Source: Stramenopiles sp. TOSAG23-6 (lineage: Eukaryota > Sar). Taken from it: a DNA stretch of 31,740 nucleotides. A model generated the notes under the pieces. That model was given only the letters and a program-made list of their open reading frames with translations. It had not been told where the DNA came from and did not search any database. The position numbers were made by a program, and so were the translations under genes. Shown piece after piece: positions 2,473 through 29,800 of the stretch (position 1 is the stretch's first letter; each line of letters begins with the position of its first letter). The stretch is taken from positions 1-31,740 of the forward strand of contig LT635960.1 of the NCBI GenBank assembly GCA_900128565.1, written 5' to 3'.

Positions 2473-3904
2473 ATGCAAAGAAGCAATAGTGATCCTACAT
2501 CATTCATTGATGATAAAAGTTCTTTCTGGGTAGAGTATACAAAGCGTAGAGTATCGTTGAATAAAGCGGATAAAGTTTCAAAAAAGAAAAGACAGACACG
2601 TGATGAAAAGCTTGCGTTACAAGTACGAGATATGCGCCGATGGCGTTATAAGACAACACACCAAGATACAAAGCTTGTAGATATACATGATGAATCAATG
2701 CAACCTACAGCAGATGAAAAATTAGTATGGACCTCAATTGAAACAATAAATGATCCAAGAGGATCTTCTATTCCAGAAGTAGAGATGTATCTTGAAAGAC
2801 AAAATCGTCGCTGTACAGATATCGCCTTGTGTTTAAAGTGTCTTCGTGATAAGTTGCTAGTTGCACAGTATGGATCAGTTGGTTCACAGAAATTTCCTAG
2901 CAGTATAAGAGTTCTAAATATATATGGTTCCCAGACCTGTGAATATGACTGGTCTGATCCATGTAATCCTGATGAAAAACCAAAAAGAGAATTAACAGAA
3001 ATTCGTTGGTGTTCCATGTGGATGCCAAATTGCCTCAATAGATTAAGAAATCTTCATATGATTAGCATAAAAAACACTACATTAAATACAATTCCTTCTT
3101 CTTGGATTGCTCTATCGCATGTTCTTGAAAGTCTTTGCTTGTGTAATAATAATATTTCCTATATTTCAACTGCTTTATCACAATGTACAAGACTCACTAC
3201 TTTATTATTAAATGGAAACAAAATTGAAAAATTGCCGCCTCTAAATAAATTACAGACGCTTCAAAAATTATGTTTAGGTCAAAATAAGCTTCGTCGGTTC
3301 CCAAGTGGTGTGAGTTCCCTTTTATATCTACATCAATTGATACTTACCAGTAATAGGATTGGTGGTATACCAAGTTCTATAAGTAATTTACAACAATTAC
3401 GAACTTTAGCAATTGGTGATAATTTATTAGAAACCTTACCAGATGCCATAGGGCAGCTTAAACATTTGACACATCTCAGTATCGATAGAAACAAGATACA
3501 AATATTACCCGAGTCAATGGGGAAACTTATTCATTTACGTTTGTTGGATGCTTCCTTTAATCAATTGAGTAATATTCATACATCTATTGATAAAAATACA
3601 GCACTATATGACATGTATGTTTTATTTTTTTTTCAATTTTTAATTTATGTTTTTCGTACGAAATTTTGTACCTAACGAATTAAAAAAATATATTTTTTCA
3701 CAATACATCAACTTGGCCATGAATTTTCTCATGGAACTGCCACGTGTAGTTTTACAAATGACACAATTAACAAAACTTAGTTTAGAAGGAAATCCTTTGA
3801 TGGAGCCAGGAGAGGGAAATGATTGGTTGATACCGCATAATACGCATTATTCAAAAAGTATAATGGCAGCTATAAAAATATCAAGAGATATTATGTTTAC
3901 TTAA
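2473..3904 (+). CDS. Leucine-rich-repeat protein (LRRIQ/Ras-suppressor type)
   Basis: Two exons, 2473-3614 and 3709-3904, encode 445 residues. ATG 2473 is the first in-frame Met; the frame upstream has none. The N-terminal 190 residues are basic and polar (KKKRQTRDEK region) and unrecognised. From about residue 195 a run of eight or so leucine-rich repeats follows the L-x-x-L-x-L-x-x-N-x-L-x-x-L-P pattern. Removing the intron restores a textbook repeat at the junction (LYDINLAMNFLMELP), which is strong evidence for the exon join. LRRs of this plain type bind proteins; the partner is unknown. The stop is TAA at 3902-3904. The last 26 coding bases are repeated just after the stop. Confidence 0.85.
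3615..3708 (+). other. Non-canonical intron (GT...AT) in LRR gene
   Basis: This 94-nt intron begins GTATGTTTT, has the core GTACGAAATTTTGTACCTAA and ends TTTTTTCACAATACAT. No AG occurs near the 3' end. The upstream exon and the intron both end in ACAT, so the exact cut can slide by up to four bases without changing the mRNA. The LRR consensus fixes the length that must be removed. Confidence 0.85.
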
Positions 3905-3935
3905 TTTATAAAATATCAAGATATATTATGTTTAC
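3875..3935 (+). repeat. 26-bp tandem duplication across the LRR gene stop
   Basis: Positions 3875-3900 (the last codons) and 3910-3935 (just downstream) are near-identical copies with period 35 bp, differing at two positions in GAGAT versus GATAT. The second copy is untranslated. Confidence 0.85.
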
Positions 3936-4419
3936 ATCAAACAGTTAAATATTTGTACCAAGTATACTTACACTATTAATGATAATACAAAGATGTAGTC
4001 TAGCAATTATAATGTCTATTTAAAAAACAAAATCCAAGATGTACTACACATTACACTATTAAGATATATAAACGTTTCCATAAATGAATAAAATGTAAGG
4101 AAAATGTTATATTTACTGAAAATGTTGTATTTAATTTTAATGTTATATTTACTGAAAATGTTGTATTTAATTTTAATATTGTATTTACTGAAAATGTTAT
4201 ATTTAATTTCAAATTTGTATTTATTTTTAATGTCCAAGTAGATTGTCACACTTTAAAATAAATATAAACTTGTCTCGTATTGTTGCAAAACTATAACATC
4301 AGTAATACATGTTATTATCATTGAAAAATACAGTTCGAGTTGTATAATTTTTTATTATTTTGAAAAATACACTTACTTCAACTCAAACTCAAACCTACAG
4401 TATAACAATCATGGTTTCT
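3905..4419. other. Convergent intergenic gap with tandem repeats
   Basis: The 515-bp gap between the ends of the LRR and Tubby genes is very AT-rich. It contains the 35-bp-period duplication and a 36-bp-period array. No gene is seen. Antisense reading frames here come only from the repeats. Confidence 0.7.
4105..4212 (+). repeat. Three-copy 36-bp AT-rich tandem array
   Basis: Copies begin at about 4105, 4141 and 4177, each containing ATTTACTGAAAATGTT and then TATTTAATTTT. The first two are nearly identical and the third has several substitutions. It is a minisatellite in untranslated DNA. Confidence 0.88.
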
Positions 4420-6384
4420 CTACAAGTATGTATCATGTCTCGCATACATGGCAGATAAAGCAATTCCAAAACCTTGTAACACAGAAAGTGGATGTATTGT
4501 AAAAAAATATTAAAAAAAAAAAATTGTTAGGTGAAAAATTGTAGCACAAAAAGTGAATGTATTGTACAAAAATATTTTTTTAAAAAGTGTTAGGTACAAA
4601 ATTGTATACAAAAAAAATAATTCATGATGAAAACGTACATATGTAACATCACATGAGAAAACATTTTCTTGTAATTTCCCTGATAACAACCATTCCTTCT
4701 TTTCACCATCTTTAGAATCATACAGAATGAAATTTTTGACACTGCTCAATTTTGCTCTTCCTTTAAAATCCAAAGTATGACATTGACGTCGATTATCCCA
4801 TTCTGGTTCTTTATTAGGTAGAGATACTACTCTATTTTGTGAAAAAATATGTTTTTGTAGTAAAAAAAATGTTAGGTACAAAAATTTTAGAATTTGTACA
4901 AACAAAAAAAATAAATTCAAAATTGAAATTTTTAAATTTGAATGAAAACAAACCTGTTTTTTACCATTGAACGTCCACGACTTTCTTTCTCAAAAGTCTT
5001 TTGTAAACCTTCATCACTATTTGAAGGTCGAAATACAACAGGTTGTCCACCAGTATTAACCATGTATTGTTAAACAATATTTTTTTTCAATAAAAAATGA
5101 ATTTTCAACAAGAAAAAAAAAATTTTGAAATGAAATTGAAATAAATGATGAAAACATATAAATACTAAAAAAAAAAAAAAATGATAAATAAATGATAAAA
5201 ACGTACGTTGGTACTAAAGTATCCATAATTCGTGGATGTTTACTAGACACCGTATATTTTATAGATGCTAGTTCTTTTCGAGATTCCATTCGGCCTCGTG
5301 CTTTGCGAGGGGCGAGACCATTATCATATAATAAAAATTCAGTTTTTGTTAAATTGCCACGAACTTTACCAATAAATGACGGATCTTCACGTCCACCCTG
5401 AGGAGTCATTGAAATCATAACATTAACACCTTTTGAAAGAAATTTACTTCGATCTTTTGCAAACATGACAAACTTATTGCCTTTTTTTCGGTCGAGATAT
5501 AATGCATAAATATACTTATTATTGTCATCTAAACCACGTTTCAAAATGCACTTGACTGTCCCGAGTTCTCGTGGTACCGGATTTGTTAAAAAATTACGTA
5601 ATTGATGAGCTGTATCATAATTATATTTAGGCATGCGAGTTGCGAATGATTTGATGGTACGTATACCTGTTGGTTTTGGAGCAATTTCAACAAAACTTTT
5701 GGCTGTTTTCAAATTAGCAGAGTCATCGGAAGTAGCGTCAGAATCGCTAGTAGATGTGTCACTGCTGTCACTGCTTTCAGAGTCTGAAGAAGAACTAGAT
5801 ACATAGTTTCCAATCCCTTGCATGTCAACATTATTGTCTTGAGCTTCATTGAGTTTCTTTCGACGAAAAGATCGAGCGCAAGCATTTGCTACAGCTGTAG
5901 ATTGCTTTCTTTTCGTTGGAGTCACGCCTGAAGACTTTTCATTAAATAACCAATCTAAATCGTCACCAGTGAGATTATCCGGATTCGCAGCATTTACTTC
6001 AACGGCTGGAGGTACTGAAGCAAATGCATTATCAAACATATCATTGACTTCATTTGAATAATTTATAGATTTTGGCTGGTTAGCGGATACGTATCCTGGA
6101 CGGTTTCCAGAATAATTTTGACCCATTTGTGAGTGTCCATTCACTCCATATCCATTATTGTGGTATGGAGAGTGTTTTCCATCTGTATGAGGAGGAAGTT
6201 TTTGACCAGGCATGTAACGTTGTGGTTGTGCCTGTTGAAAATTACGGTTCTGGCGTAATCCAAAATTATTTTGAGAGGGAGGTGCAGAGGGACCCCCCAA
6301 CACATTACCAAAGGGGCTATTATCCTCATTTTGACCTTCCCAAGATAAATTGTCCCAAAAGGGATCATTTTGAAAATCTCCCAT
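4420..6384 (-). CDS. Tubby-like protein
   Basis: Four exons on the minus strand, 6384-5207, 5061-4954, 4831-4639 and 4491-4420, join in frame to 516 residues ending in TAG. The N-terminal half is low-complexity: Asn/Gln/Pro-rich, then an acidic Ser/Asp run near residues 195-225 and basic KRKQ and RRKK clusters that could be nuclear signals. The C-terminal half is the Tubby domain. It begins in exon 1 with the LxRN...G-T-V-K-C region, SFIGKVRGNL and LLYDNG, continues with PVVFRPSNSDEG, then NKEPEWDN, LDFKGRAKLSSVKNF and ENVFSCDVTY, and ends PLSVLQGFGIALSAMYARHD. That order matches the family. Tubby domains bind phosphoinositides; in animals the proteins act in ciliary trafficking and as membrane-released regulators. 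The last exon is only 23 codons. Three introns of the unusual family interrupt the domain. Confidence 0.9.
4474..4605 (-). repeat. Approx. 66-bp tandem duplication of a splice acceptor
   Basis: Two adjacent diverged units each carry, read on the minus strand, an ACCTAACA core, a T/A tract, ACAATACAT and about 20 nt of exon-like sequence (CCACTTTCTGTGTTACAA in the functional copy, TCACTTTTTGTGCTACAA in the upstream copy). Use of the upstream copy would give a short tail and an early TAA. Confidence 0.82.
4492..4638 (-). other. Non-canonical intron 3 of Tubby gene
   Basis: This 147-nt intron begins GTACGTTTTCATCATG and ends TTTTACAATACAT, with no AG. Joining gives VTY-PLSVLQGFGIALS, the expected Tubby C-terminus. 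It contains a second, upstream acceptor-like end (GTACAATACAT) produced by a local tandem duplication. Confidence 0.83.
4832..4953 (-). other. Intron 2 of Tubby gene (GT...AG member of the family)
   Basis: This 122-nt intron begins GTTTGTTTTCATTC, has the core TTTTTGTACCTAACA and ends TTTTTTCACAAAATAG. It is clearly related to the non-canonical introns but ends in AG. The exon and intron both end in AG. The join gives KNR-VVSLPNKEPEW, matching Tubby proteins. Confidence 0.85.
5062..5206 (-). other. Non-canonical intron 1 of Tubby gene
   Basis: This 145-nt intron begins GTACGTTTTTATC and ends TTTAACAATACAT, without AG at the 3' end. The only AG far inside would lead to an in-frame stop. The 5' portion looks duplicated: GTACGTTTTTATCATTTATT is followed about 40 nt later by ATGTTTTCATCATTTATTTC. 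It lacks a recognisable GTACCTAAC core. It is the one member where the upstream exon end (AC) and the intron end (AT) do not match. Confidence 0.75.
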
Positions 6385-6772
6385 TCTATTAAAAACAGAG
6401 AAGTTTGTTCAGTGTATATTCGCTACAGATATAACACACTTTTTATTCAATGCAAAGATTATTTTGATGTCGAAAGAGCAAGGAGAAAAGTTGGAATTCA
6501 AGTGAACATTGAAGATGAAGAAGATCGATCAAATCAATGAAGAATATCTTTTTGGAAAAGTTTTTGATTTTTTGGTTACCCGGTAATGGTCGAGTTCATA
6601 AAATTTTTTATTTTTTACTGCTTTTTTACTCGTGCTTTTCCGTGCTTTTCTCTCTTATCTTTACTATTACTGCTCCAGGGCTCAAGTCAACTGCTGTTTT
6701 TTCCAAACCTTGAGAAAAACTTTATTCACTATTTTTGTATTTCACCGTAAGACATTCTCTTCATATTCAAAT
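6385..6772. other. Divergent intergenic region, Tubby / selenoprotein W
   Basis: The 388-bp gap is shared by two divergently transcribed genes and must contain both promoters. It is AT-rich with no clear TATA, telomere-like or operator motif that I can defend. GGCTCAAG at about 6677 resembles the end of dinoflagellate spliced leaders but is too short to use. Confidence 0.5.
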
Positions 6773-7039
6773 ATGGTGAAAATTGTAATTCAATATTGTG
6801 GTGGGTGAGGATATGGTGGTCGTGCTCGGCAATGTCAGGAGTTCCTTGAACAGTCGTTGGGTAAGGGAGGTCAATTTCAAGTGGATCTTTTACGAGACCC
6901 TGGAAAAACTGGAAACTTCGAAGTAACAGTGGATGGAACTTTGGTACATAGTAAAAATAGTAATAACGATGGCTTTGTCGACAGTCAAGAAAAGTTGGAC
7001 AAAATTATCGCCTGGGCTAAAAATAAAAGCTGTGGGTAA
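6773..7039 (+). CDS. SELENOW: Selenoprotein W with in-frame TGA (Sec)
   Basis: From ATG 6773 to TAA 7037-7039 the frame encodes 88 residues, the usual SelW size. The only interruption is TGA at 6806-6808, in the context Y-C-G-G-U-G-Y, the C-x-x-U redox motif of SelW in a Rdx/thioredoxin-like fold. The rest matches the family: a K-I-V-I-Q-Y-C first strand, a GGQFQVDLLRDPGKTGNFEV hairpin, V-D-G-T-L-V-H-S-K and a C-terminal helix D-K-I-I-A-W. A SECIS element lies 45 nt after the stop. SelW proteins are small cytosolic thiol-redox proteins, with methionine-oxide and 14-3-3 links proposed in animals. An automatic gene caller would start at 6857 or miss the gene. Confidence 0.95.
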
Positions 7040-7691
7040 CTTGAAATAACTAGTTTTGAGATATTTTATTTGAATACAACGGTTGATACTGTTGGTCTGA
7101 AAGCGGATTTTATTATCTGTAGACAACAGTTGACGTAATAATATGTAATAGTATATAGTATATAAACTCAAATATTTATCTTGTACAAAAGCTTTCAACT
7201 TTCACAAATAATTTTGTCTTTTTGGTACGATTTTTGTAATTTTTAATTTTCGTAGTAAAAATTTGGTCAACGCATTCAATCAATTATTGTTACAAGATAG
7301 AGTATTTCTTTTCAATGGATAATATAAATACTTAACTAATTGTGTACAGTCAAAAGTATTTCTTTTGTTGTAATAAATTCCCATTTTCAAAAAATATATT
7401 CTATTATATACCGATGGGTAGTATGAAAATGAAAGCAATTTGACAAATTCGCACAGACCTGCTAAATTGTGAAGCAAGCCAAGCCAGTAAAATTGATCCT
7501 TGATTAAATGAACTGACTTTACAAGTTGACAAGTAGTTTGACGCGCTTGCTNTGTGTGTGTGTGTGTGATAACTCATTTATACCAAATTTACGATTTACA
7601 TAAATTTGTATTCATCTCTGAACTCCCCCAAACAAGCAGCATTGCGGGTGTAGATTTTCCCGTCGAAGGCGACGTGGCCTCTTTGAACCAA
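7040..7691. other. Intergenic / 5' leader region before eIF4G
   Basis: It holds the SelW 3'UTR with its SECIS, an AT-rich stretch with a degenerate TTTTTGGTACGATTTTTGTA copy of the intron/foldback core at about 7217-7236, a (GT)n run at 7553-7568 beside an N (7552), and from about 7620 a GC-richer, coding-like stretch in frame with eIF4G. That last part may be the 3' portion of an upstream-spliced coding exon. Confidence 0.5.
7084..7134 (+). promoter_or_regulatory. SECIS element (type II) in SelW 3'UTR
   Basis: The 5' quartet strand is TGAT at 7084-7087 and the 3' strand TGAC at 7131-7134. Helix II pairs 7088-7098 (ACTGTTGGTCT) with 7121-7130 (AGACAACAGT), with one bulged G. AAA at 7100-7102 lies 12 nt after the quartet. 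A second small helix pairs 7103-7108 (GCGGAT) with 7115-7120 (ATCTGT), using two G-U pairs and a 6-nt loop. This has all the parts of a eukaryotic type II SECIS, which recruits SBP2 and EFsec to decode UGA as Sec. Confidence 0.9.
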
Positions 7692-10600
7692 ATGGCATTG
7701 AATCAGGCTAGTCTAAACGAAGCAGATCTGAATGCCCTACCTGAACAAGAACGCCGTCAAAAGCTTGGAGATGCACTCTACCCACGTGTTTTGTCACTTG
7801 TGAAACCTGGAGAAGTTGGATTTATTGTAGGTATGATTCTCGAAGCAAAACATTTAAGTGTGAGTGATGTCCTTGATTTACTTGTAAATGATAAAGTTCT
7901 CAAATCTACAGTTGAAAACGCAGTCGCCACGCGGCAAAATGGAAATGTTACTACAATGAACGGAAACAGCCAACCAAACAGATCTAATATTCGTAAACTT
8001 TCTCAATCTGATAAAGAGGCCGAAATATCATATCAAAACAGAATCGAGCGATTCCAACGCGATGCTCCAAAAACTCCTAATCGTAATACGAGAGTAGCTT
8101 GGGCTGGTGGAAAGATTACATCAAATAAAGAAGAAGCTACACAGAAGTTCCTGAAACGAGCACAAGCGTCTGGTGTTCCATTAACTCCACATCAAAAGAT
8201 GGCCTTGGAAAAAGTAAATGCAACTGTCACGAAATCTAATACTACAGGTGCTGTAAAAAGTGATGCTTCTGGAGGCACTAAAAAGTTGAAGACGTCGACA
8301 TTAAAAGCAGGTTCAACAAAATTTACTCCTGGAAAAAAAAAGTTAAGCAGTTCTGCGACATCTTGGACACCAAAAACAAAAGGTACCACAGCTCCAACAC
8401 CTGCTAAAGGACATCTTGCGTACCAGAAAGTTGCTCATAAACAATTACAGCAATCGCAAAAATTAACGCCTGTGATTTTGAGTGAAGCAAAACGTTTAGA
8501 TAGTCTCGAACCTGCTGAAAGACGTCAGCAACTGGGTAATATGTTGTATGCGTATGTAAATAATATTGTTGGTGCTGCTAATGCAGGTCGTGTTACGGGA
8601 ATGTTACTGGAAGCTCAGCATTTAAATACTAGTGCATTACTTCTTTTGTGTCAAGATCCAAATATGTTACTTTTTCAAGTAAAGCAAGCTCAAAGTGTCC
8701 TTGGACAAGTTCACTGGGATACTTCTATGCAACAGCAACAACATCATCACCAAATGCAACACTTAAATACACAAATGTCAAATATGAATATGTCACAAAT
8801 GCATCAATATCCGAATCAACATCAACAAAATATGCATATGCGTCACTATAAGAATTCTCAAGGATTGCATAATATCCATGGACAACAACTTCATCATTTT
8901 CCTGTACCATTAAATGTTCAAACACTTCTTAGTTTACCACAAAACGTTCGCGCGCAGAAGATTGGTGATCGTTTATTTCCTCTTGTTACCCGTCTTTCAT
9001 CTCAAGCAGAAGCTGCTGGCATTGTTGCATCACTTTTGAGTGCTAATCATTTAGATACTGCAAAATTAGTTGCACTTACCACTCCCATTGGAAATGAGCA
9101 ACTTGTGCAACAAGTTGCAAAGATTCGTAATTACAAAGCTCAAGTTGCAGAGACGAAACGCAAGGCAGAACAAGACGCATTCCTCAAGGCAGCAAAAGCT
9201 GATGCATTAGCTAAAGAGGAAGCTGCAGCAAAAGCCGAAGCATTATTGGCAGAAGCAGCAGCAAAGGCGGAAGAAGCAGCAAANGCAAAGGCAGCAGCAC
9301 AAGCAGAAGTTTCACGTAAAATGGAAGAAGCAAAACAAGCAGAATTAATGGCAATAAAAGCTCAAAAACAGGCGGATTCTACTGCAAAGCCTGTTGCCAA
9401 GTCTTCACAGTCACAAGTGTCTGCAATTGCAGCAGCAAAAGCTAAATTTTATGCAGATTGTGAACAAATTGTTACGGAATATTATATGAAACATAATAAG
9501 AATAAAGCATCCCACGCTAAAGATGTTATTAAAAGATATGTAGGACGAATGCATGAATTATATGACCAGCTTACAAACAAATATGGTGATAGTAAAATGC
9601 TTGCGTTATTAAACTCACATCGCCCAGCTGGTGCGCGGGAATTAAGAACTCCTGCTAAATCTAATCAATCAAGATCTGATAAATCTAGAAGACCTTCTTA
9701 TTCTAAAGAACAAATCATGGAAATGCGCGAAAAAGAAAAAACAGATAACAAGAACAAATTAGAAGCGGCTCTTGCTGCTGCTCGTGGAGGTGATAGCATT
9801 CGTAAAAACGAGAGATCGGACAGATCTGTTCCAGTACCATTGCGAATGAGTTCTGGAGGTGCTCGTGGTGGTTGGGAAAAAGCAGGTCAGTCTCGTCGAG
9901 AATCTTCACGTGGAGGTGGTCGTGATCGTGATCGTGATCGTAATGTAAGAGGAGGTGATAATGGAAGACGTGGTGGTGATCGTGCTGGTCGAGGGAATGA
10001 TCGTGGTAGTAATAATGGTCCTGGTTCAAATGAATGGGCTGTTGGTGAAGATGTATATAAAATTATTGAAAAAGGTGATGATTTACATATGCTTAAAAGT
10101 GTCATTAAAAAGAAGTGTGGTTCCGAAATACCATCCGATAAACTTGCAAAAGTAGCAGTGATTAACGCTGCACGTCGTGGGCGAACGAAATGTTGTATTT
10201 GGCTTATTGATGTAGGAAAGGCTAGAGTGAATGAAACAACTAAAAAGGGTCAATCACTCTTACATTATGCTGCTTTTGGAGGTTATGAAGAACTTTGTAA
10301 AGCTTTCTTAGCTCGTGGTGCGATGAAACATTTGAAAAATAAAGAATTTAATGAAACTCCAGAAGAGACTGCCTATGCTGCTGGTCATATTTTATGTGCA
10401 AAAATGATTAAACAAGCTGTTGTGCCTACCTCTGATCCAACTGCTGCTGCTGCTGCTGCTCGAGATGCGCGTAGAGCTAATAGACGTGGTAATAAAGGTA
10501 GAAATGGTCGAGGACGTCGAAATCCAAATGAACGTATTCCTGATCACTTGTTAAAAGAAAAAGCCAACACTGGAATTGTGTTTAAAGCGACTGGAAAGAA

Positions 10601-12464: not shown

Positions 12465-12583
12465 TTGGTTTACTCTTGTTCATTCAAAAGTGATATACAA
12501 GAATAAATGGAATTTTAATTTAAAATGTTTGTTTACTTTGTCATTTATTTTTTAGCATGAGGTTTTTACATAAAACCTTTACA

Positions 12584-14334: not shown

Positions 14335-15773
14335 ATGCTTAGTGCGTTCTTTGATTTACCAGTTGGAGAATTTCCCTTACTTCATGAAACGGTATTTGAG
14401 CCATATCTACTTTCAGCTTTGAGTATCGTTTTATTATTCGGCTGGATTGTTGCAAAACTCCTTGGTTGGAGTGCAATCACGATCAACTCTCATTTTGAGC
14501 AAACTTTAAAGTCGTATAAATATATATCACCCACTTCAAGTATATTGGAGGATTTATTTCTGAATGCATTTTGGGATAGATGTGCTCTATGTGTTCCTCG
14601 TTGGGTGGCACCTAATCTTATCACTTTTAGGTAAGTAAGACTTTATTTAAAAATTAACTGTGTTGTATTTTTTGAAAACGCTAATTATATTTTTCCTGTT
14701 TGTATTTATTTCAAACGAATCATGTTATCCTTTAAAATTTTTACTTTTCAAATTGTAAAGATTAGCTCAAAACTCATTTCACTTATTTTTCATGTATTAT
14801 TTCGTACTTTAGTGGTGCTGTTTTTATATGCTTTGCATGCATTCTTCATTACTTATTCTCACCTCTGTTGGATCACTCAGCGCCTTGGTGGGTGTACACT
14901 CTCTTTGTTATCTGTATATTTCTATATAATACATTTGATGGTATGGATGGAAAGGTTGCAAGAAATACTAAATCAGGATCTGCTTTAGGTGAGCTCTTTG
15001 ATCATGGTGTTGATGCTTTAGTTACAACTCCTCTTACAGCGTTTGGACTAGATGTCTTGCGTTTAGGTTGTTCAAATCCCTTGCTTAGATTTGCACTTGT
15101 AGGAGCTCAAATGAATTTTGCTTTAAGTAATTTTTCATTACTTCATTGTGGTAGACAAAATTTTATTAAAATTGACTGCCAAGAGGCTCAGTATTTTGTA
15201 ATGCTGTGTATTTTTGTTCTTAATTTATTTCCAAATCTTGCTGAAACTGAATTGATACAAGGTTACACACTTTCAATGTCTGTTATATTGTACGTAGATA
15301 TTAGTATGATTTTTAATGCGGTGCGAAATATTACTGTAATTGCATTATTTTACCTAAGAGGAGAAAAATGTTTGTATCAAAATAGTAGTCGACAAACATT
15401 CACAACGTTTTTACATCAAACAATTTGTGTTTTACTTTTTGCTGTTTTGTCTTTTATATCATCTGTAAAACTTTCGTACTGGACGTGGGTGATTATTTCA
15501 TCATTTCTATCTGCTCGAATGACTAATCAACTTCTTGTAGCACGAATGACTGGGATACAATTCCCAATGATTCCTACATCTATTTTGGTTTGTAGTTTTA
15601 CAGCAGCATATGCATGGAATACATCAAGTGTGAAGAATTATATTTTAGAATGGCATATTGCTCTTTTTTCTGTTTTGACTTGGGCAACTTATTCTGTTCC
15701 AATGTTATTACGATTTGCAAAGTGTTTGAATGTTTCTATATTTCGAATGTCTAATTTATCTAAAAAGGAGTAA
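14335..15773 (+). CDS. EPT1: CDP-alcohol phosphotransferase (ethanolamine/choline phosphotransferase)
   Basis: Two exons, 14335-14630 and 14813-15773, encode 418 residues ending in TAA. Exon 2 carries the complete CDP-alcohol phosphotransferase signature D-G-x2-A-R-x8-G-x3-D-x3-D (DGKVARNTKSGSALGELFDHGVD). Around it are WVAPNLITFSG, a typical family start, and about eight hydrophobic segments. The enzyme transfers phospho-ethanolamine or phospho-choline from the CDP donor to diacylglycerol in the ER/Golgi membrane, the last Kennedy-pathway step. The head-group preference cannot be read from the sequence. Animal EPT1 (selenoprotein I) has a C-terminal Sec; this one does not, ending in KKE and TAA. 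Confidence 0.92.
14631..14812 (+). other. Canonical GT-AG intron in EPT gene
   Basis: This 182-nt intron begins GTAAGTAAG and ends GTACTTTAG. The join gives NLITF-SGAVF, as expected of the family. It shows that ordinary introns coexist with the unusual family, and it shares none of the family's conserved blocks. Confidence 0.9.
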
Positions 15774-19000: not shown

Positions 19001-20288
19001 GTCATTGTCAAAATATTTGCGTCTCTGGGCAGTGGGGTAGTATTTGGCAAATGCGACTTGGAAAATTCCGTACCTAACGAATTTCGTATTTGCTGAGTGT
19101 TGCTCCTCTTACTTTTCATCACTTTACAGTCTTTTCGGTTATCTGCAGTAGAGTTGACATTATTTTGTTGAATATCTTCAATTACATTAGTTGAAATATC
19201 ACATGGCTTATTTTCTTTCCTTCTTGGAGTTTGTGTATTAATTGTTAATGTATTGTGAAAAAATATTTTTTTAGTAAAAATATTCGTTAGCTACAGAATT
19301 TACTACAAAAAAAAATTGAAAATCATTATGAAAACGTACATGAAGTATGCTGACTCCTTCTCTGTGCTAGCGACATCTTCCCCTTGGAAGCTTGTGAAGT
19401 GGATGTCATAGCATATCTAGCTGCTGCAGCTACACGAGATCTTTTATTATAATTCTGTGAAAGTGTTGATGAAGAATTTGTAGATTGAGACTGTGGTAAC
19501 CCTAACCCTAATTGTTTCACTTGGCTCTTTTGGCTCTGACCTCTATCATCAATACTTTCTTTATCAACTTTATTACTACTGTTCTCCAAAAGCTTATTTT
19601 GATGCCTATTATTTTCTGAATTACTTGATGTTACATGAATAATTGCATCAGCAACAGTAGTTGCTGTCAAGTTAATTCCTACAGATGAAGAGTTACCACT
19701 CAATTTGATACCTGCTTCATCTTTCTCACTTTGAAGAATTCGTAGACGTACAACTTCACGTAATAATTTCCGCCGATGTAGACGAACATCGATTTCAAGT
19801 AAGCTGAGGTCGTCATCACTATTCATGAGTAATAACGCATTGCCATTAATTTGAAGTTGTCTAAATTTTTCTGAATAACGAGATAAATCTATCGAATGGA
19901 GCCACTGTATCACATCTTCGACACTCCACTGTTGAATATTTGGACCTTGTACATTTCCCTTATATTCCACAGATAAAGATACAGGTTGTTCTTCAACAGC
20001 TAGTGGTGAAATATCATATTTCTCGTTTGTTTGGAAATAGCCATCAACTGTGGAAGCTTGTGTACCTAGCGTAGCTTGGAGAGACATATCTAAAGACTCA
20101 ACTAAATCACTTTTATCCTTTTTCAGACCTCTGGCAGCTAAGAGTAACCGCAATTCTTTGATTTCATCAGGAGTAAGTGAAGCCAACTGCAGCTCACGCA
20201 TCAATTCTGTTTTCTCATTTTCCGAGGTTCCACTATCAGTATCAACCTCAAAACCCAAAGTATCTGAAGAATCCAACAAAGGATTCAT
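16018..20288 (-). CDS. SAM-domain protein kinase, MAP2K-like
   Basis: Two exons, 20288-19340 and 19247-16018, join in frame to 1392 residues ending in TAG. The intron between them is of the unusual family. A SAM domain lies at about residues 118-184 (WSVEDVIQWLHSIDLSRYSE). A long Asn/Ser/Lys-rich disordered linker follows. The kinase domain spans about 972-1242 with the Gly loop LGRGAGGVVYKA, the Lys in VAIKK, HRDIKPANLL, DFG, an activation segment SREFDETNFSNAVTFTGT and the MSPER motif. These are closest to MAP kinase kinases, whose activation loop is phosphorylated at Ser/Thr before GT. SAM domains usually occur on upstream MAP3Ks (Ste11 type) and mediate oligomerisation. The C-terminal part is basic and ends in a small helical region. 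It faces the EPT gene convergently (244 bp). Confidence 0.88.
19248..19339 (-). other. Non-canonical intron (GT...AT) in SAM-kinase gene
   Basis: This 92-nt intron begins GTACGTTTTCATAATG, has the core TTCTGTAGCTAACGAA and ends TTTTTTCACAATACAT. No AG occurs between the core and the end. The exon and intron share a CAT end. Removal joins QHTS to LTINTQTPRRK without a stop and makes one gene from two ORFs. Confidence 0.8.
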
Positions 20289-20695
20289 TTTTTAAAAAGC
20301 TATTTTTGGTGTTTGTTACTGCTGCAATCTAACATTCAAATCGTATCTTCAACACACGTACCCAGCTACTTTGCAGTAGGATGAAATTACTCGTTTAGAA
20401 TATGGAATCCCCTTCTCTTCACTTCTAAACAGTTCTGATTTGAAAAATATTTCAAATATTTGAATGAATAAAAATCGAGCTAGAGTTTCGAATCGAAAGA
20501 CATGATGACGACGACGATTTCCTTTTTTTTTCATTTTGAATTTTCGTGAAGAACCGAACCCTAACCCTAACAAAAGATCTTGAATTTGTAACGGTAATTA
20601 ATTAGTAGCAAAAAATTAGCTAATGACCTTGATAAGTTTCAAAGAAGCTTGTGTAAGATTTTAGGAAAAGTATAATTGCCACATTCGCTTTCAGA
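20289..20695. other. Divergent intergenic region, SAM-kinase / ankyrin protein
   Basis: The 407-bp gap contains a telomere-like doublet at 20557-20571 and several Phe/Lys-biased AT-rich runs. No gene is supported; a 74-codon minus-strand ORF here is not convincing. Confidence 0.55.
20557..20571 (+). repeat. Telomere-like doublet AACCCTAACCCTAAC
   Basis: Two perfect CCCTAA units lie in the divergent promoter gap, about 125 bp before the ankyrin gene's ATG. Confidence 0.65.
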
Positions 20696-21517: not shown

Positions 21518-21612
21518 TTTTTTGTTCAATAAATATTGTAAAAAATACAATTTTTTTTAGTTTTACAACATGCTCTTCGTTTTTGTGAGTTATATACAGA
21601 GTTACAGATTAT

Positions 21613-21628
21613 GTTAGGGTTAGGGTTT
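21613..21628 (+). repeat. Telomere-like doublet GTTAGGGTTAGGGTTT
   Basis: Two TTAGGG units lie in the 269-bp gap between the ankyrin gene stop and the ARP10 start, about 160 bp before the ARP10 ATG. Confidence 0.65.
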
Positions 21629-21786
21629 GCTTTTTTCAAGATGACTCTAGCGCTAGTCAGAATAATGTTCTTTTTCACAATATAAATTGGAGATTCTTCA
21701 CTTCACTTCCTTGAACTTGAATAAATAAACCTGTTGTATAAAGTTGATACAAAGAGAGGACGCGGTCTTTGATATTACAGTAATCA

Positions 21787-23161
21787 ATGGTGTATCCTTT
21801 ATATGGGCGTGAACTTTCATCCGTTGTAATTGAACTCGGAAGTGCGTATCTAAAATGTGGTTTCTCTGGAGATTCTGCTCCAAGTCATATAATTCCATGT
21901 CCGGAAATGCACCAACTATTATTGCAGTGGCCTCCACCTTCACCCAGTGAATGGCAAACATATATCAGTGATTTATTATCAAATGTATTTTTTACCAAGT
22001 TACTAGCTAAACCGACAAAAAGAAGCGTTATAATTTGTGAAACATATTTTACCCCAACAATTGTACAAAAAGCTGTTGCTTTTGCGTTATTTGATCATCT
22101 CCGGGTACCAAAAGTTCGATTTATAAAGACAAGTTTGGCTGCACTCTACACGACTGGTAATTTGACTGGAATTGTAATAGACTGTGGTTATTCTGAAAGT
22201 CGCATTGTTGCAGTTTATTCAGGTAAGTTAATACCCGGTGCTCAACGTGTTGTAAAGACTGGTACTTTGGCCGTTCATGAGAAACTAAAAACTGCTTTAT
22301 TTCCAAATGATTCCATTGAATTAGCATCTACTGAGTGTATTTCTCACTCAACTACTAATATGTCATTTTCTGGGATATTGGAAGATATAGCACCCCGATG
22401 TTGTTATGTATCACCCGAAGAAGACAAAAATCAAAATGAAGATTCTGAAGATGGGCCTGATATAAAATACAGTTTACCTATGAATTTTTCTACTTTAGTC
22501 AAAAATGATATTAAAAGTGAAAATAATAGAATTAATATTGAAACAAATAATGCCACTTGTGATAATAGTTGTAGTATTCATATTCCGTATAAAGTGTATA
22601 CAAAAGTCACTGATACATTATTTTATAGTAATGAAAACAACGAATACTCTTTCGCTGAAACATTTTTAGATATTTTGTACGTTTTTATCATTAATTTCAA
22701 TTTTGTTTCATACGAAATTTTGTACCTAACGAAATTTTTTTTCAAAAAAAAAAAAATATTTTTCACAATACTTACGTGCCTGTCCAAACGACCTCCGAAG
22801 AGTTATTGTACAAAATGTTGTAGTTATTGGTGGGACTGCATCATATGATGGTTTTAATGAGAGATTAAAGAATTCAATATTAAACTATGCAAAAAAGTTG
22901 GAAGATTTAGGAGAAAAAACATATAAAAATAGTTTTTATTTTTCATCTTTGAAAGTTATGAAAAATTACCTTAAAATAACACCTCAGATATTTTCACCTA
23001 ATATTACAGCATGGGTTGGTTGTTCATTAATGGGAATTAATGTATCAGTACCAGAATCAAAAATTGATGTATATGATGAATTTTGTGATGATGAATCAAA
23101 TTTTATGACAATTTCAGACTTTTATTCACAAGGAATTCAAGATGAATTTCAAATTGAGTAG
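21787..23161 (+). CDS. ACTR10: Actin-related protein 10 (dynactin pointed-end subunit)
   Basis: Two exons, 21787-22676 and 22774-23161, encode 425 residues ending in TAG, close to human ACTR10 (417). The actin-fold N-terminus reads SSVVIELGSAYLKCGFSGDSAPSHIIP. The phosphate-2 region is TGIVIDCGYSESRIVAVYSG, followed by GILEDIAPRCCYVS, a block characteristic of ARP10/Arp11. The exon junction restores FLDIL-RACPNDLRRVIVQNVVVIGGTASYDGF, the conserved actin adenosine-site segment. ARP10 caps the dynactin mini-filament with p62, p25 and p27 and supports dynein cargo transport. An acidic and Asn-rich insertion at about residues 214-265 is lineage-specific. Confidence 0.9.
22677..22773 (+). other. 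Non-canonical intron (GT...TT) in ARP10 gene
   Basis: This 97-nt intron begins GTACGTTTTTATCATT, has the core ACGAAATTTTGTACCTAACG and ends TATTTTTCACAATACTT. No AG occurs after the core. The exon and intron both end in TT. The actin-fold alignment requires exactly this length to be removed. Confidence 0.88.
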
Positions 23162-23337
23162 TAGAATTTTAGTTATTTTTTATATTTTATCATATAAAAA
23201 AAGAAGTAGAAATATCCAATCGAAATTCATATGAAAATTTTAATCCCTCTACATTTAATGATTTAAACCTAAATATAACCATATAACCCTAATCTACTAT
23301 TCTATCTGAAAAAATATAAACTCCATACTACTTTGCT

Positions 23338-24480
23338 CTAACTAGCCTTTTTTAAATTTTTATTATATTTTCTTTTAGGTTGTACTTTTTGTGCTTCTTT
23401 TGCTTCATGTTTTGTAAAAACTTTTCCAATTGCCTTTACAAAACTAGCATAAACATACTGAGCATTAAACTGCATATCATGCCAATAATTTACAGCAATT
23501 GTTGCTTCATTTTTAGACTGTGCAACACGGTGATACCACATTGCAGGTAAATATAAAATTTCTCCAGCCATTAATCGACATTCTAGAGCCATAACTGATC
23601 CTTGACTTGACATGGGAAATTTCTTTTCTTGTGCAGCATGACATTGTTTTTTTGGACGATTTGGATAATGTAAGTAATCAGGGTGAGGATCAACTGAACA
23701 CCATGGTACTTTTTCACCATTCTCTAAAACTATTTTCCAACATAACTCTGATTTGTCATAGTGATACCTAGCAGGTGAATATTTCTTTTCATATAAAAAT
23801 GGTGCAGCAGCAGGTGGTAATAATATAAAATCCTTATATCCTTTAATTACACAATATAAATTTTCATAATGATCTGCATGTACTGAAGTTGTAGCACGAC
23901 AATCTCCTACCCAAAGATTTACTGCATCAGGTGGTGTACCAAATGCTTTTGTTGCCCAAGATATATTATCAGGAACATCGCTAGATATTTCAGGAAATTC
24001 AGTGCGCAGAGAGTCATTTTGATATGATAAATATGGTATATTTGAGCAATTTTGTTTAGACTCTAGTAAATTTGCAAAATCTGTAAAATTCATTTCTCTT
24101 TCTTCTGGTTTTATAAATACGTATTCGTTCTCAACATTTGTTTCTATATTATGATTCAAAGAGCTACTATCAGATTCACTTTCAACGGCATATTTAGAAG
24201 TGGGAACATGGAGAACTGCATCACCAAGACCATTGGGTGTGACATTTACATTCACGTTTCTATTGCCAGTACTTGTTTTTAAATATTCCAACGACCACCG
24301 ATTGTATGCGTCCCAACCTGACACAACTCCTTGAATAATGACTGGAGTACTGGTTGCAACAAATCTCATAAATTCTAAAGCAGTTGGTTCGCGAATTCTC
24401 TGGATTTGACGAGGAGTCCAGAGAGCTCCGGTTTCAGAAGCAAGCTCACACAGTGCATGTCGTATATCTTCATTAAGCAT
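23338..24480 (-). CDS. JMJD7: JmjC-domain hydroxylase, JMJD7-like
   Basis: A single exon from ATG 24480 to TAG encodes 380 residues. The cupin/JmjC Fe(II) ligands are H201 and D203 in SVHADHYENLYCV and H317 in LPAMWYHRV. Neighbouring blocks match JMJD7 closely: TPVIIQGVVSGW, VNVNVTPNGLGDAV, PDAVNLWVGD and ATIAVNYWHDM. Family members are 2-oxoglutarate/Fe(II) oxygenases; human JMJD7 is a (3S)-lysyl hydroxylase of DRG GTPases, and protease activity has been proposed. The C-terminus is a basic tail (RKYNKNLKK), possibly a nuclear signal. It is convergent with ARP10 and divergent from the helicase. Confidence 0.92.
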   Translation of the reverse strand: MLNEDIRHALCELASETGALWTPRQIQRIREPTALEFMRFVATSTPVIIQGVVSGWDAYNRWSLEYLKTSTGNRNVNVNVTPNGLGDAVLHVPTSKYAVESESDSSSLNHNIETNVENEYVFIKPEEREMNFTDFANLLESKQNCSNIPYLSYQNDSLRTEFPEISSDVPDNISWATKAFGTPPDAVNLWVGDCRATTSVHADHYENLYCVIKGYKDFILLPPAAAPFLYEKKYSPARYHYDKSELCWKIVLENGEKVPWCSVDPHPDYLHYPNRPKKQCHAAQEKKFPMSSQGSVMALECRLMAGEILYLPAMWYHRVAQSKNEATIAVNYWHDMQFNAQYVYASFVKAIGKVFTKHEAKEAQKVQPKRKYNKNLKKAS

Positions 24481-24851
24481 TTCAGTGTGAACGATATACT
24501 AGTATACAAAGATGAAGCTACCGTAGTCTTTTTGTGTTGTTTGGTAGTAATGGTCAAAATTGATTGACAAAAAACAAAAAAAAGAGTCAGCAATGATTTT
24601 GATTCAATAAGGCGATTAAGATCCTGAGGTACCTGTAGTCAATTCAACCTTGATTCGAATTATCTATTTTAATTCAATTGTGTGAATAACTGAAACAAAA
24701 CTATCGAAACAGAGTATATACTATATAGCTGTATAAGCAAGATAGAAAATATTCAGTGTCTTTCTACCATTTACGAAGCTTCTTTGACTTATTTTCAGAC
24801 CCAACACTTTGGCGTGTTTCAACTAATCTTATTTCTTTCAAATTGTACAAA
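24481..24851. other. Divergent intergenic region, JMJD7 / helicase
   Basis: The 371-bp gap is AT-rich. The helicase frame is open back to 24756 but without an ATG. No telomere-like doublet and no other gene is seen. Confidence 0.5.
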
Positions 24852-26681
24852 ATGCTGAGTCGTTTTGCTTCATCAGTTTGGATTGAAAAATGTTTTCACC
24901 GTATTAAAGCACGTCAACTTTCTATTTCTAGTGCTCAAGTAACATTTGGAAAATTATTGAAAGGCAAGGGCTCTTCGTTTTCACCATTTACAGCAAGACT
25001 TAAGAAATTGAAAATTCAAGAACCATCTGAAATACAAAAACTTGCAATACCTCAAATACTCCGCGGTCCAGGTCACGATTTTGCTTTACAGGCACCTACT
25101 GGTACTGGGAAAACATTGACATATTTGTTGCCAGTACTTGCAAAAATTGATCCAACTAAAAGACACATTCAAGCTATTATTATTGCTCCTACAAGAGAAC
25201 TTGTTATACAAATTCATCGTGTTGCAAAAACTGTGGGTGTATATCGTAATAAAAAAGGAAACGGTATAAAAGTAGAGAAATTTACAGGACAAACGTCAAA
25301 AGCACAGTTGCATATAAAACATCACAAACTTGATCAAACACCTCCGCATATTCTAATATGTACACCTCAAGTTCTTCATAAACTTTTACAATATGGACCT
25401 ACCAAGAAATCTTTAGGTTTGCCACGTGTTAATAATATAATTTTTGATGAAATTGAAGCTTTGTTACAACCCACCACACGCCAAATTCTTTTTGATATTG
25501 TTCATTCAGGCCCAAAAAATCCTTTGGACCAACAACGTATTTATGTTTCTGCTACGATGCCATCAGAAGTGCTTACTGGTGTAGCACCTTGTATACGAAA
25601 AGATCAAATACTAAAAGAAAAAATTGCACCCACTCTACTTTCAGTGGATACAAGTAAAGGACAGTTACCACGTGGCACTTCACACCGTATATTACTTTGT
25701 AGTGGGAAACCTAGTTTTAAAAGTCGTTCGGCTGCTTTACAAAGATGGCTTAAAGACGATAGAAATAAAAGAAGGAAATTTTTTGAAAGAAAACGAGAAG
25801 CAAGTCGACAATTCAAAAGTGCAAAAGTTTCTCGGAAACATGCCGAAAATGCTTCAAAACAACAAAATGTAGATATAAGAGTCATTTGTAATACTTTTCC
25901 TATTGATTATGATAATACTAAAGTGATTACAACAAATGATGAATTCATTCTAGCACATCATAGAATTATTACAGCTGAGAAAGCTAAATTAGAAACTCAA
26001 ATTTCAAACTCAAATTCTGGCAATGATCATTTTATCAACAAAGACATTTGGGAAAAGCGAAGAGGTACACTTATATTTGCAAACAGTGGAAAAGAAGTAC
26101 GTAATATTCAGAATATACTTTATAAGGGTGGTGAAAAAAAACCACTTGCTATTGATGGCTTGAAAGGCAATTCTGGTATTGTACCAAATTTATTACCTGA
26201 ACAATTACAAACATCTTGTGTAGGACACAGTAGAGATGTTTCTGAAAAATGGAATAAGATAGCAACAGAGGATGTAGAGAATAATACAAACAAAACATTC
26301 TTGAAAACCAAATCATTAAGAGCAAATGCATTAGCTTCTTTAGGTAGTAAAGCAACTACGGTAGTTATAGCTTCAGATGGTTTATCTAGGGGTATCGATA
26401 TTGAAGGGTTAACACATGTTGTGAACTTTGGTTTGCCATGGGATGGTGCTAATGGCTATATCCATCGCTCTGGTCGTGTTGGTCGAAACCCTGTTATAAA
26501 GACTACAGATTTCAATCTAGAGAAGAGTTCATCTAGTGGTAGTGAAGAAGATACTAATCATTCGGCAGTTGTTATTTCAGTCTTGACAAAAAAAGAAGCA
26601 GAAACATTAAAAAAATGGTCTATAAATGAAGGATGGAATATTGATTTTAATGTACAATTGACAAGTGAAAAAAAACTGTAA
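24852..26681 (+). CDS. DEAD-box-family RNA helicase, probably mitochondrial
   Basis: ATG 24852 is the first Met of the frame and gives 609 residues ending in TAA. Motifs: Q-motif region (IQEPSEIQKLAIPQIL), motif I APTGTGKT at about 82-89, Ia PTREL, motif II FDEIE at about 198-202, motif III SAT at about 233, a C-terminal domain with LIFANSGKE, SRGIDIEGLTHVVNFGLP and motif VI HRSGRVGR at about 538-545. Motif II is D-E-I-E instead of D-E-A-D; the catalytic Asp-Glu are kept. The N-terminus (MLSRFASSVWIEKCFHRIKA) is basic and amphipathic, suggesting mitochondrial import. A basic insertion at about 290-340 and a further insertion before motif IV enlarge the protein. The RNA substrate is unknown. 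Confidence 0.9.
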   Translation: MLSRFASSVWIEKCFHRIKARQLSISSAQVTFGKLLKGKGSSFSPFTARLKKLKIQEPSEIQKLAIPQILRGPGHDFALQAPTGTGKTLTYLLPVLAKIDPTKRHIQAIIIAPTRELVIQIHRVAKTVGVYRNKKGNGIKVEKFTGQTSKAQLHIKHHKLDQTPPHILICTPQVLHKLLQYGPTKKSLGLPRVNNIIFDEIEALLQPTTRQILFDIVHSGPKNPLDQQRIYVSATMPSEVLTGVAPCIRKDQILKEKIAPTLLSVDTSKGQLPRGTSHRILLCSGKPSFKSRSAALQRWLKDDRNKRRKFFERKREASRQFKSAKVSRKHAENASKQQNVDIRVICNTFPIDYDNTKVITTNDEFILAHHRIITAEKAKLETQISNSNSGNDHFINKDIWEKRRGTLIFANSGKEVRNIQNILYKGGEKKPLAIDGLKGNSGIVPNLLPEQLQTSCVGHSRDVSEKWNKIATEDVENNTNKTFLKTKSLRANALASLGSKATTVVIASDGLSRGIDIEGLTHVVNFGLPWDGANGYIHRSGRVGRNPVIKTTDFNLEKSSSSGSEEDTNHSAVVISVLTKKEAETLKKWSINEGWNIDFNVQLTSEKKL

Positions 26682-26843
26682 AAAATAAAGAAAGTTATCT
26701 CATTATGTTTCCAATATTACCACTTTTTACAATATAATAATATTACAATAAATACTTTGTGAAATCGATTATCATCAGGACAAAACATTATCAAGTTATG
26801 CCAGAAATTAATTGAAATCTATAATGAATATATATAGTATATA

Positions 26844-29800
26844 TTAAATATATTCGAAATATGCAGTTGGTATAACACCGATTTCATCAGTTCCATCAGT
26901 CGTCATTACCTGACTCCAACCATCTTCAAATTCTTCCAAAACTTTAATCATAGAATTTTGTTTCACATGTAATTGTTCATCATCATCATCCTCCTCTTGA
27001 GGTTCAAAATCAAATGACATTTTAGCATCCCTTGCAGTTTTAATTAATTCATCTAAATCAGTTTCTGAAGTAATATCAGGATTGACTGATTCATTTGAAG
27101 TAGAATTACCGACAGACTCACTTATTGAAGGTCTTTGGTTGGAAACTTCCATAGATGTCTTTTCTATATCAACGACTTTTGTAGTGCTATCTACAGTTTT
27201 GTTATTGGTATCGGATGAAACAGCTACAGCAGCAGCTTCAGCAGCAGCCTGGATCAAAGCACGCTCATACAAAATTTCAGCATCTTCGTCGGAATCTTGA
27301 TTGACAGTATCATTTTTAGAAAGATTTTGTTTTACATCTTCGTCGGAATCTTCATTGTCAGTATCATTTTTAGAAAGATCTTGTTTTACATCTTCGTTGT
27401 CAACATTGGATACTTCTTCCTTCACATCTGGTATAATCTTTTTTTCAATAGCTTTACTTTCTGGTACCTCGATTACATCAGCATTCGCTAAAGAATTTGC
27501 TGTATACAATCCACAACCATATAATGATGCAGTTATTTTAGGTTTGACTAGTTTTGCTGTTGGTGTTTTTTCAGTATCTTTAATCTTAGAATCATGTATA
27601 GGTGTCTTATCATTCGTATCTGGAGATGTACGCAAGATTGGAGCAGTAGTGAGAGAAGGTGGTCTTTTATTAGGACTAAGCCCTAACCCTCCAACACGAG
27701 ATTTTACTCTTGGAGCATCAATAGAACCTCGTCTTTTCTGTACACGTAAACGAACAGCAACAGGAGCAGAGTTATCTTCTTTAGCTTCGTCTTTTTCTGC
27801 CACTACTGGAAGACTCATTGTATCACATACTGTTTCATTTGCTTGATATGACATATTTTGAGATTTTTTACGAAATTGTTCAATTCTTCTTGTTCTTGAT
27901 GCAATCTTTTCTTTAGCTTCATGAAGATTGTCTGGATCAATTAACTTCAAAGCCTCTGCAACAATTGCAACAGGAATTGAAATTGACGCATTCGAATCTC
28001 TTGCAAGTCGTTTTCGATCAGTATCACGTGAACCTGCTTCAATGTATGCCCATGTTCCATGTATTTTGTAGAAATATTTCAAAAAAAAAACCTAAAATTT
28101 GTTAGGTACAAAATGTTTTGAAAAAAATAAATTCGAAATTGAAAAAAAGAATGAAAACATACATCTACACGAGATGTTTCTTCAAATCGAGCAGCTTCAA
28201 CGGCAGCATTAACACTTGCGGCAGGTTTCATTATAGCATCAATATCACCTGCACCAGCTGAAACACGCACACGAGTACATTCAGATAATAGTGCTGCTGC
28301 TGCTTGTTGAGCCTTTTCTGACGATTGACATGACTTATCAAACAACAAACCACCTGCAGTTCGGAGTAAAGGTTCAAAATATTGACTCCATGTTTCTTCT
28401 TCTTCAACATCTTCATCATTCGAAATTTGAGATNTTTTATTTTCATATGAATTCCTGGCCATCGACAATAAAGCAGATATAATTGTAAAACCACTTGAAG
28501 CATATGTTTCATTACTGATTGTTTCAAGTAATACCATTGCACACATTTTTGCAAGAATAGGAGTTTTTGTGAAATATTCTTGACATACTACATATGCGAT
28601 ACGTTCTAGAAATAATTGAGATGACTTTGTAGAATACTCGGAAACAGCCTCAATTAAATCGGGATGAGCATTTACACGTTTCAATGCATCTAAAAGATGT
28701 TTAATAACTTCAGTAACTTCTCTAGAATCTCTCACAACGAGTGATGTATCTTTCTGATATCGCGAACACACTTGAGAAATCATTGCAGCATCAGCTTCTG
28801 CCTTTACCTTTTGCATATATAACCAAGGTAATAGTAGTAAAAGTGGTCTAAGAACGCGTTCTCCACCAGATGAGTCGAAAAAATCAACAACAACGCCTCC
28901 CCCAGTAAGACGGATAACAACAGATCTTGCAATTGCTGCAAGTTTTGCATCTTTATGGTGTACAACATGTGTTAATAATGTCAATAATCCAGTAAATGGA
29001 GGATCCCAAGCTAAAACACCTGGTGGTGGTGAAAGATTTGAGTCAACTTTTGATAACACAGAAGCAATTGGTGACATTTCTGATGTAACAGTATTCACAA
29101 TACGAAGTCCAGAATATAATAATTCAGGAAGATTTGATTTTAGCATTGCCAAGCCAGTCCACATTAATTGAAAACAAGTTTCAGATGTTGCTGTACATTT
29201 AGGAGAAATTGATGCCTTGGAAGTACTAGAAATAAACTTCACAAGTTCTTCAGATAATACAGCTAAAGTTTCAGCCATTTCAGCAGTTTGTGCAATCAAC
29301 TCGGCCGTTTTCGGTGATGTTGCTTTAACAGATGCACTTGATGAAAGACTCAACATTCGATCTGCTAAATGTCTACATAATGTCAATGCATCATTATGAT
29401 TCATTGTTAATCCTTTTCCTAATTTCTGCAATTGATCACAATGAAGTAAAGTTCGATAAATCCAATGCGCACGTGTAGATAAATTAGAATCCCTACAAGC
29501 AAGAGCATATTCTAGAGTTTCTTTTGTAAGTGATGCAATTAAATCATGACCCTTACCTGTCGCAAAATCAACACTTGTAATAAAAGCTAAAATGAAATTA
29601 CCTAACGAATTCGTGCATTTTGATTCGTACTCCCAATTAATTGTAAATGGTCGACCAGATAAGGATAAAGACAACATTGCAACGAGAGGATTCACTTGTC
29701 CCACTAAAGCATTGTATAATTCTTCAGAATTTTCAGATGTATTTTTTGCAAAACTTGGCAATGATAATAAAACATTACGTAAAAGACTCGGAATATGAGA

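Follow-up and report, generated by a model that had tools for sequence, protein, structure and literature searches.

Seven related introns in five genes of the window

The 31,740-nucleotide (nt) stretch analyzed here, referred to as the window, is contig LT635960.1 (C10) of the assembly GCA_900128565.1 from Stramenopiles sp. TOSAG23-6, which comprises 8.03 Mb in 408 contigs. Five of its genes are interrupted by a total of seven similar introns, most of which end in AT and not in AG, the almost universal intron end. They are members of a large family of short introns that we traced through the assembly. The five genes encode an LRR protein, a Tubby-domain protein, a kinase, an ARP10-like protein and a PH/SH3 protein; the names LRR, ARP10-like and PH/SH3 are those of the original prediction, which had been made from the sequence of the window and whose seven segments we found at the coordinates and on the strands that it gave. 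With the joins proposed there, those within the Tubby domain included, each of the five genes has a continuous reading frame.

The intron of the LRR gene (3615–3708, plus strand) reads GTATGTTTTATT...CACAATACAT, leaves an open frame across its join and matches the family profile described below. Three introns lie on the minus strand in the Tubby gene. The first (5062–5206) possesses the 5' and 3' blocks of the family, lacks the CTAAC core and gave no match to the family profile at an E-value of 1e-3 in the window; its removal creates the join VPT-VNTGG (hyphens mark the joins) inside the Tubby domain. The second (4832–4953) is the sole one of the seven to end in AG; it matches the profile, and the frame is open across it. 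The third (4492–4638) is a tandem double copy (4638–4557 followed by 4556–4492). Taking out the first copy alone, with its end at 4557, leaves the frame broken, while removal of the full 147 nt restores it and yields the join CDVTY-PLSVLQ. The introns of the kinase gene (19248–19339, minus strand; core CTGTAGCTAAC) and of the ARP10-like gene (22677–22773, plus strand; ending in TT) match the profile and leave the frame open, and that of the PH/SH3 gene (28059–28162, minus strand) is a profile match as well.

The sequence features ascribed to these segments stood for the most part. Five share the 5' block GTAYGTTTTYAT; the intron starting at 4953 carries GTTTGTTTTCAT, and that starting at 3615 has GTATGTTTTATT, a second 5' variant also present in other family copies, which places it outside the consensus that had been proposed. 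As predicted, six of the seven have a CTAAC core (5206–5062 is the one without), and the ends are AT in five introns, TT in 22677–22773 and AG in 4953–4832. The original prediction had mentioned neither the tandem nature of 4638–4492 nor the fact that the two exon bases preceding the GT are the same as the last two intron bases in six of the seven introns (at/AT in four, tt/TT in 22677–22773, ag/AG in 4953–4832), with 5206–5062 differing (ac/AT). Each of these six junctions can therefore slide by two bases. The statement that the only nearby AG in the PH/SH3 gene would produce a stop codon did not survive: an AG 33 nt before the intron end is in frame and stop-free, and its use would add VFFLKYFYKIH to the protein. 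In the other five non-AG introns of the window, no in-frame AG exists between the core (or position -60) and about 25 nt past the end when the donor is left unshifted.

Copies of the family across the assembly

A genome-wide search for copies, as proposed with the original prediction, was carried out with an exact pattern composed of the 5' block, 10–40 nt and the core. It returned 162 matches in the 8.03 Mb, 81 on each strand, and the reversed pattern returned none. The likeness among the copies is far above chance expectation, which bears out the contention that these introns share their sequence in a manner not normally seen among unrelated introns. Because some of the 162 matches are identical strings in doubled places, they do not all count as independent. 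A chimeric assembly was considered in this context and not adopted as an explanation; the doubled or inverted places include C2 (twice), C64/C69, C128, C130, and C171. We fetched 30 loci from the pattern search and 60 further stretches around matches, both taken among the matches listed. A profile built from the copies gave 243 matches in the fetched stretches, 138 of them non-redundant and with both ends. Two of the 138 start with AT (ATATGT and ATACGT) and were set aside, leaving a set of 136 copies, free of redundant ones, on which our analysis relied unless stated otherwise.

Copies are mostly about 80–110 nt long and non-coding. As the fetched loci had been picked for strict copies, copy density in them is biased. 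A sample of six 6-kb stretches chosen by contig number (C11, C31, C51, C91, C141, and C181; 36 kb in total, with C51 already known to carry a copy elsewhere) contained nine copies distributed over four of the six stretches, or about 0.25 per kb; the window carries seven in 31.7 kb. Scaled to 8 Mb, this sample would correspond to roughly 2,000 copies, with a wide margin. Hence, many similar introns occupy unrelated gene positions in a single genome, the hallmark of introner elements.

All 136 copies begin with GT. Their last dinucleotide is AT in 105, TT in 11, GT in six, AG in five, and AC and CA in two copies each, with five other pairs occurring once. The profile by which these 3' ends were set stops one base short of the last base, which is therefore free of a T bias; it superseded an earlier assignment by consensus score (85 of 99 copies), in which ACAT was favored. 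The 5' site, with the consensus GTACGTTTTCAT, is GTACGT in 90 and GTATGT in 27 of the 138 copies. A CTAAC/T core is present in 132 of the 136 copies, 98 of which have it in the form ATTTTGTACCTAAC, and a median of 39 nt separates the branch A from the intron end. A T tract (five or more T among the six bases from -16 to -11) is found in 121 copies. The 3' consensus is TTTTTCACAATACAT, and the next base, already in the exon, is G in 87 copies. HAT (H being A, C or T) forms the end of 104 copies, that is, of all AT ends except one, with C at -3 in 86 and T in 15 copies, and the final base is T in 123. The introner-like family with a GT start, a CTAAC branch-like core and a mostly non-AG end that had been proposed from seven members therefore holds for the entire set. 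The accompanying notion of a relaxed 3' site needs to be amended: the ends are indeed mostly non-AG, but the prevalence of HAT and of a final T makes the site look specific and U-ending and not free.

Removal of these segments restores the host frame. One frame is clearly open on both sides of 103 of the 136 copies, and taking out GT...NN joins the frames in 97 of these 103 (chance expectation one third; binomial probability 7e-39); in an earlier, smaller copy set, the figure was 61 of 63. Several joins fall within conserved motifs: LLMDSL-GGTSKT of a kinesin, whose intron is a 184-nt tandem, HFLFY-GPPGTGKT in a Walker A motif, and PPM-LRGVPQ of an Hsp70 protein, which aligned without a gap. 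The Tubby joins, including VTY-PLS, lie inside the domain in both alignments in which they were checked; the first has a two-residue gap near the second join, and the second, with a relative's Tubby protein (P0122), shows gaps of one residue close to the first join and ahead of the second. In a Pfam scan of ten joined proteins, the join is spanned by matches exceeding the curated cut-off for Hsp70, the M14 peptidase, the kinase, the sugar transporter, ABC, M16_C and an fn3-type domain. Weaker cases are an EF-hand match reaching two residues past the join, WD40-type crossing matches below the cut-offs, and UCH, whose best match starts after the join. An Hsp70 match from the protein collections (P0121), considered as RNA-level support, was discarded as it belongs to another species. 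Tandem or nested family copies were noted at L036, L081, L065 and L072 as well as at 4492–4638 of the window; at L036 and in the window, the frame fits only with the whole tandem removed.

The exon pair preceding the GT equals the intron-final pair in 84 of the 136 copies, where shuffling predicts 65.5 and reached at most 78 in 20,000 rounds. At position -2, exon and intron bases match in 98 copies against 75.6 expected (z 6.9), and from -3 to -6, there is no clear excess (z at most 1.3). The flank match, which is locus-specific at -2 only, may represent a 2-bp target duplication. At this position, A is present in the intron and not in the exon in 22 of the 97 in-frame copies, and the reverse in none; for all 136 copies, the figures are 31 and 5. 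This excess of intron A suggests selection for A at -2 subsequent to insertion, with AG, one further change away, not being favored among the copies.

An intergenic element of about 0.43 kb at 1940–2367 of the window, for which no strand was assigned, is bounded by terminal inverted repeats (CGGCCAC...). The inner part of its left repeat (GTACGAAATTTTGTACCTAA) equals the family core, holding the same 20 bases as the core of the introns. Ends of the type C(C)(T)ATACCGRCCACTTTT... occur at three places in the assembly, namely here and on two other contigs (L093 and L094), and a link between this element family and the introns is possible. Further features of the window are the region 1–1240, which encodes a protein rich in cysteine, with repeated CxxC motifs and a hydrophobic C-terminus, and in which positions 1–300 are identical to 475–774, and short telomere-like words, (CCCTAA)2 or (TTAGGG)2, in or beside genes at 19500, 20559, and 21614, which are repeated in L094. 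The last 55 bases of the contig (31686–31740) are the exact reverse complement of 27227–27281, which probably reflects an artefact of assembly words where the contig ends.

Proposed splicing of the family and the rival explanations

With good confidence, we read the family as introner elements of a MAST stramenopile that the ordinary spliceosome would excise using a poly(U)-HAU 3' site, the splicing machinery probably reading an end signal different from the usual one and missed by standard gene finders. The assignment of the organism draws on an ATAD3-like protein encoded at locus L025, which is 99% identical, where both align, to the EukProt entry GSMAST32.ASY1.ANO1.1475.1 (P0001); the name of the entry indicates an assembly from a MAST stramenopile, and we read it as MAST-3. 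Short mobile introns would have spread through the coding regions of this organism, each insertion probably leaving a short duplication so that the pair in front of the GT is repeated as the last intron pair. An ordinary U2-type spliceosome would then recognize the 5' site GTAYGT, the branch core ...GTACCTAAC, the T tract and a (C/T)AT end followed by an exon that often starts with G. The intron-final U could pair with the first intron G and thereby replace the usual G-G contact. A fidelity factor may be altered in this organism, and Prp18 or U2AF1 would be the first suspects.

Several properties of the copies and of the genome are consistent with this reading. The GT start with a U1/U6-compatible 5' site, and a branch motif and pyrimidine tract at the usual distance from the end, are those of U2-type introns. 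Introns of the U12 type, by comparison, have ATATCCTT or GTATCCTT at the 5' site and TTCCTTAAC close to the intron end; the 5' consensus and the core of the family, and the median distance of the latter from the end, do not conform to this type. The organism does use AG, as the window contains an ordinary GT-AG intron of 182 nt (GTAAGT...TTTAG; 14631–14812, plus strand) in a choline/ethanolamine phosphotransferase gene. Once joined, the product of this gene can be aligned with choline/ethanolaminephosphotransferase 1 (8gyw) via APNLITFS-GA, with a one-residue gap two residues past the join. A combination of GTRAG donors, AG acceptors and strict frame tests of uncalibrated sensitivity, applied to the fetched DNA, gave three candidates for such introns, only that in the phosphotransferase gene being convincing; hidden Markov model gene-structure and codon-score scans gave too much noise to allow a count of ordinary introns. 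Among the splicing factors, Slu7 was found with a match to part of its profile, and a normal-looking Prp8 is present, its frame staying open over 2,021 codons with no intron. A stretch of 507 Prp8 residues is nearly identical to hPrp8 in a gapless alignment and matches residues 1438–1944 of the yeast chain 3jcm, the Q of its NAQR motif corresponding by position to yeast Gln1594. In the report on yeast splicing without Prp18 (PMC10711555; this and all other cited papers were drawn on in excerpts), Gln1594 is described as contacting the -3 pyrimidine. It is thus unlikely that the Prp8 finger has changed.

Equal flanks have the consequence that the mRNA of most copies cannot distinguish GT...AT from AT...AC. 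Sliding the junction by two bases would turn the introns into NN-GT...AC, mostly into the known AT-AC type, with an identical mRNA for the 84 copies with equal flanks, among which AT is the commonest pair. The 52 copies with unequal flanks speak for the junction as we placed it: among the 28 of them that are clearly in frame, GT...NN produces no stop codon and the slid junction four, and sliding would change the leucine of the conserved kinesin motif DSL-GG into histidine. The exon consequently retains its own two bases, which leaves GT...NN as the intron. As TT- and GT-flanked copies would moreover become TT-AC or GT-AC introns, so that odd ends would persist, we regard the slid junction as highly improbable. 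Excision outside the spliceosome was left open by the original prediction, and short flank repeats as well as an end choice not governed by AG would be compatible with it. Removal guided by hairpins has been proposed for the Amoebophrya introners and is known from euglenid introns, and DNA eliminated in ciliates is known for an exact repeat at both ends of every copy. For the family studied here, however, RNAalifold found no consensus pairs in 120 copies, inverted repeats at the ends are lacking, and end pairing is low (0.81 vs. 0.58 after shuffling in 80 copies, a slight excess); the mean fold energy, too, is slightly lower than that of shuffled sequences (-8.8 vs. -6.9). Exact repeat-guided DNA removal would not be expected to tolerate the unequal flanks, which also set the family apart from ciliate-type eliminated DNA, and the assembled DNA contains the segments, no search having been made for versions free of the intron. 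The GTAYGT start, the CTAAC core and the T tract are what a spliceosome needs. Taken together, we consider removal by hairpins or DNA elimination unlikely.

The copies might alternatively be ordinary GT-AG introns that use a nearby AG and the first or second GT of GTACGT as donor, the proteins being slightly changed as a result. An in-frame, stop-free AG lies within 45 nt of the AT end in 54 of the 93 in-frame non-AG copies when the donor is kept, and in 49 of the 93 with the second GT; the PH/SH3 intron of the window has such an AG as well. A donor shifted by +4 together with an AG at +4 preserves protein length in three copies (L018 1501, L025 967, and L015 1501). The public model of the L025 gene fits this combination at one family intron, where it has RMY instead of RMQ. 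At the other L025 intron, however, the public model lacks GPPGTG of the Walker A motif and reads FLFYVRKTMT instead of FLFYGPPGTGKTMT, as a donor at +4 and an AG at +16 would give; several other pieces of the protein are missing from it, too. With the first GT as donor, no in-frame, stop-free AG is available within 15, 30, and 45 nt in 72, 56, and 39 of the 93 copies, and with either GT as donor, none is available in 62, 33, and 16 copies, respectively. The distances of those AGs that are available scatter. In addition, 13 clear in-frame copies (ten with AT, two with TT and one with AG ends) contain an AG located 12 nt or more downstream of the branch A and yet end beyond it, six of them only 2–5 nt further on. 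We therefore hold ordinary GT-AG splicing of the family to be very unlikely. Individual copies could in some cases be GT-AG introns, as the argument is built on the uniform end, the restored frames and the motif joins across the family.

Apart from these AG options, several observations weigh against splicing at a poly(U)-HAU site as we propose it. We infer the removal of the segments as introns from genomic DNA, and with an AG end in five of 136 copies, the family departs from the usual rule for U2-type introns. A duplication finds no support in the match at -1, since exon and intron alike have T there almost throughout. Six of the 103 clear copies break the simple end rule; three of them (L065, L072 and the intron at 4638 of the window) have the appearance of tandem copies, two (L063 and L012) are compatible with an AG end 1–2 nt away, and L029 has an N in its end block. 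U2 (Rfam and pattern search), U6 (pattern search), U2AF1 and Prp18 were not found in the assembly, nor was the 3' end of the SSU rRNA in a pattern search; as the assembly looks partial, the absence of the snRNAs, U2AF1 and Prp18 says nothing firm.

If splicing at the poly(U)-HAU site is correct, a wild organism would possess one near-uniform non-AG 3' site serving hundreds or thousands of introns, and what enforces AG could be addressed by comparing Prp18, Slu7, U2AF1, U5 and U1 with those of its relatives. A more far-reaching version, in which the main spliceosome has been reset to poly(U)-YAU as its normal 3' site in a natural counterpart of a prp18 deletion, with the introner family as the commonest intron type and only few GT-AG introns persisting, is conceivable, and we put it forward tentatively, with the balance tilting somewhat against it. 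With one gene model compared and its Walker A motif lost, the public protein set of the species may be damaged more widely.

Comparison with known systems

No report of an AT-ending introner family was found in our searches of an open-access library, and the excerpts of PMC5778133, which describes MAST-3A and MAST-3F composite single-cell genomes, of PMC12614181, and of PMC8163842 do not discuss introns of this kind, words starting with "intron" occurring in them two, zero and zero times, respectively. The introners reported from algae, fungi and dinoflagellates had been identified in sets of annotated introns (PMC9860276). They resemble the family described here in that one short family occupies many gene positions, mostly with an unchanged mRNA length; a target duplication occurs in part of those families. 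Of unusual ends, the excerpts of that survey name rare GC and GA at the 5' site and none with AT at the 3' site, whereas the 3' end is mostly AT here. The loss of the Walker A motif from the public gene model suggests that introner surveys relying on annotated introns can overlook families of such a type.

The introners of Amoebophrya (PMC7789003) likewise have direct repeats at their boundaries and ends other than GT-AG. They possess, however, inverted repeats of 8–20 nt, direct repeats of 3–5 nt and very mixed ends, while in the copies analyzed here, end pairing is not conserved, the repeat measures 2 nt, the start is fixed as GT and a single 3' end prevails. In Fritillaria, introns with non-AG 3' ends are spliced, among them one whose natural AU end served as a probe, and duplicated, divergent U2AF subunits have been tied to non-AG splicing (PMC13326754). 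There, 95% of the introns escape GT/AG with diverse 3' sites, in contrast to the near-uniform GT start and HAT end of the present family.

In our view, the most telling parallel is provided by yeast lacking Prp18 (PMC10711555). Such cells use HAU 3' sites, CAU and UAU being the best among the G-free ones, an upstream poly(U) stretch favors their use, and a pair between U-1 and G+1 has been proposed. The C or T in front of the AT end and the T tract upstream of it are the corresponding features of the intron family from this stramenopile. In yeast, this is the condition of a mutant with alternative isoforms; here, it would appear to be the normal state of a wild organism.

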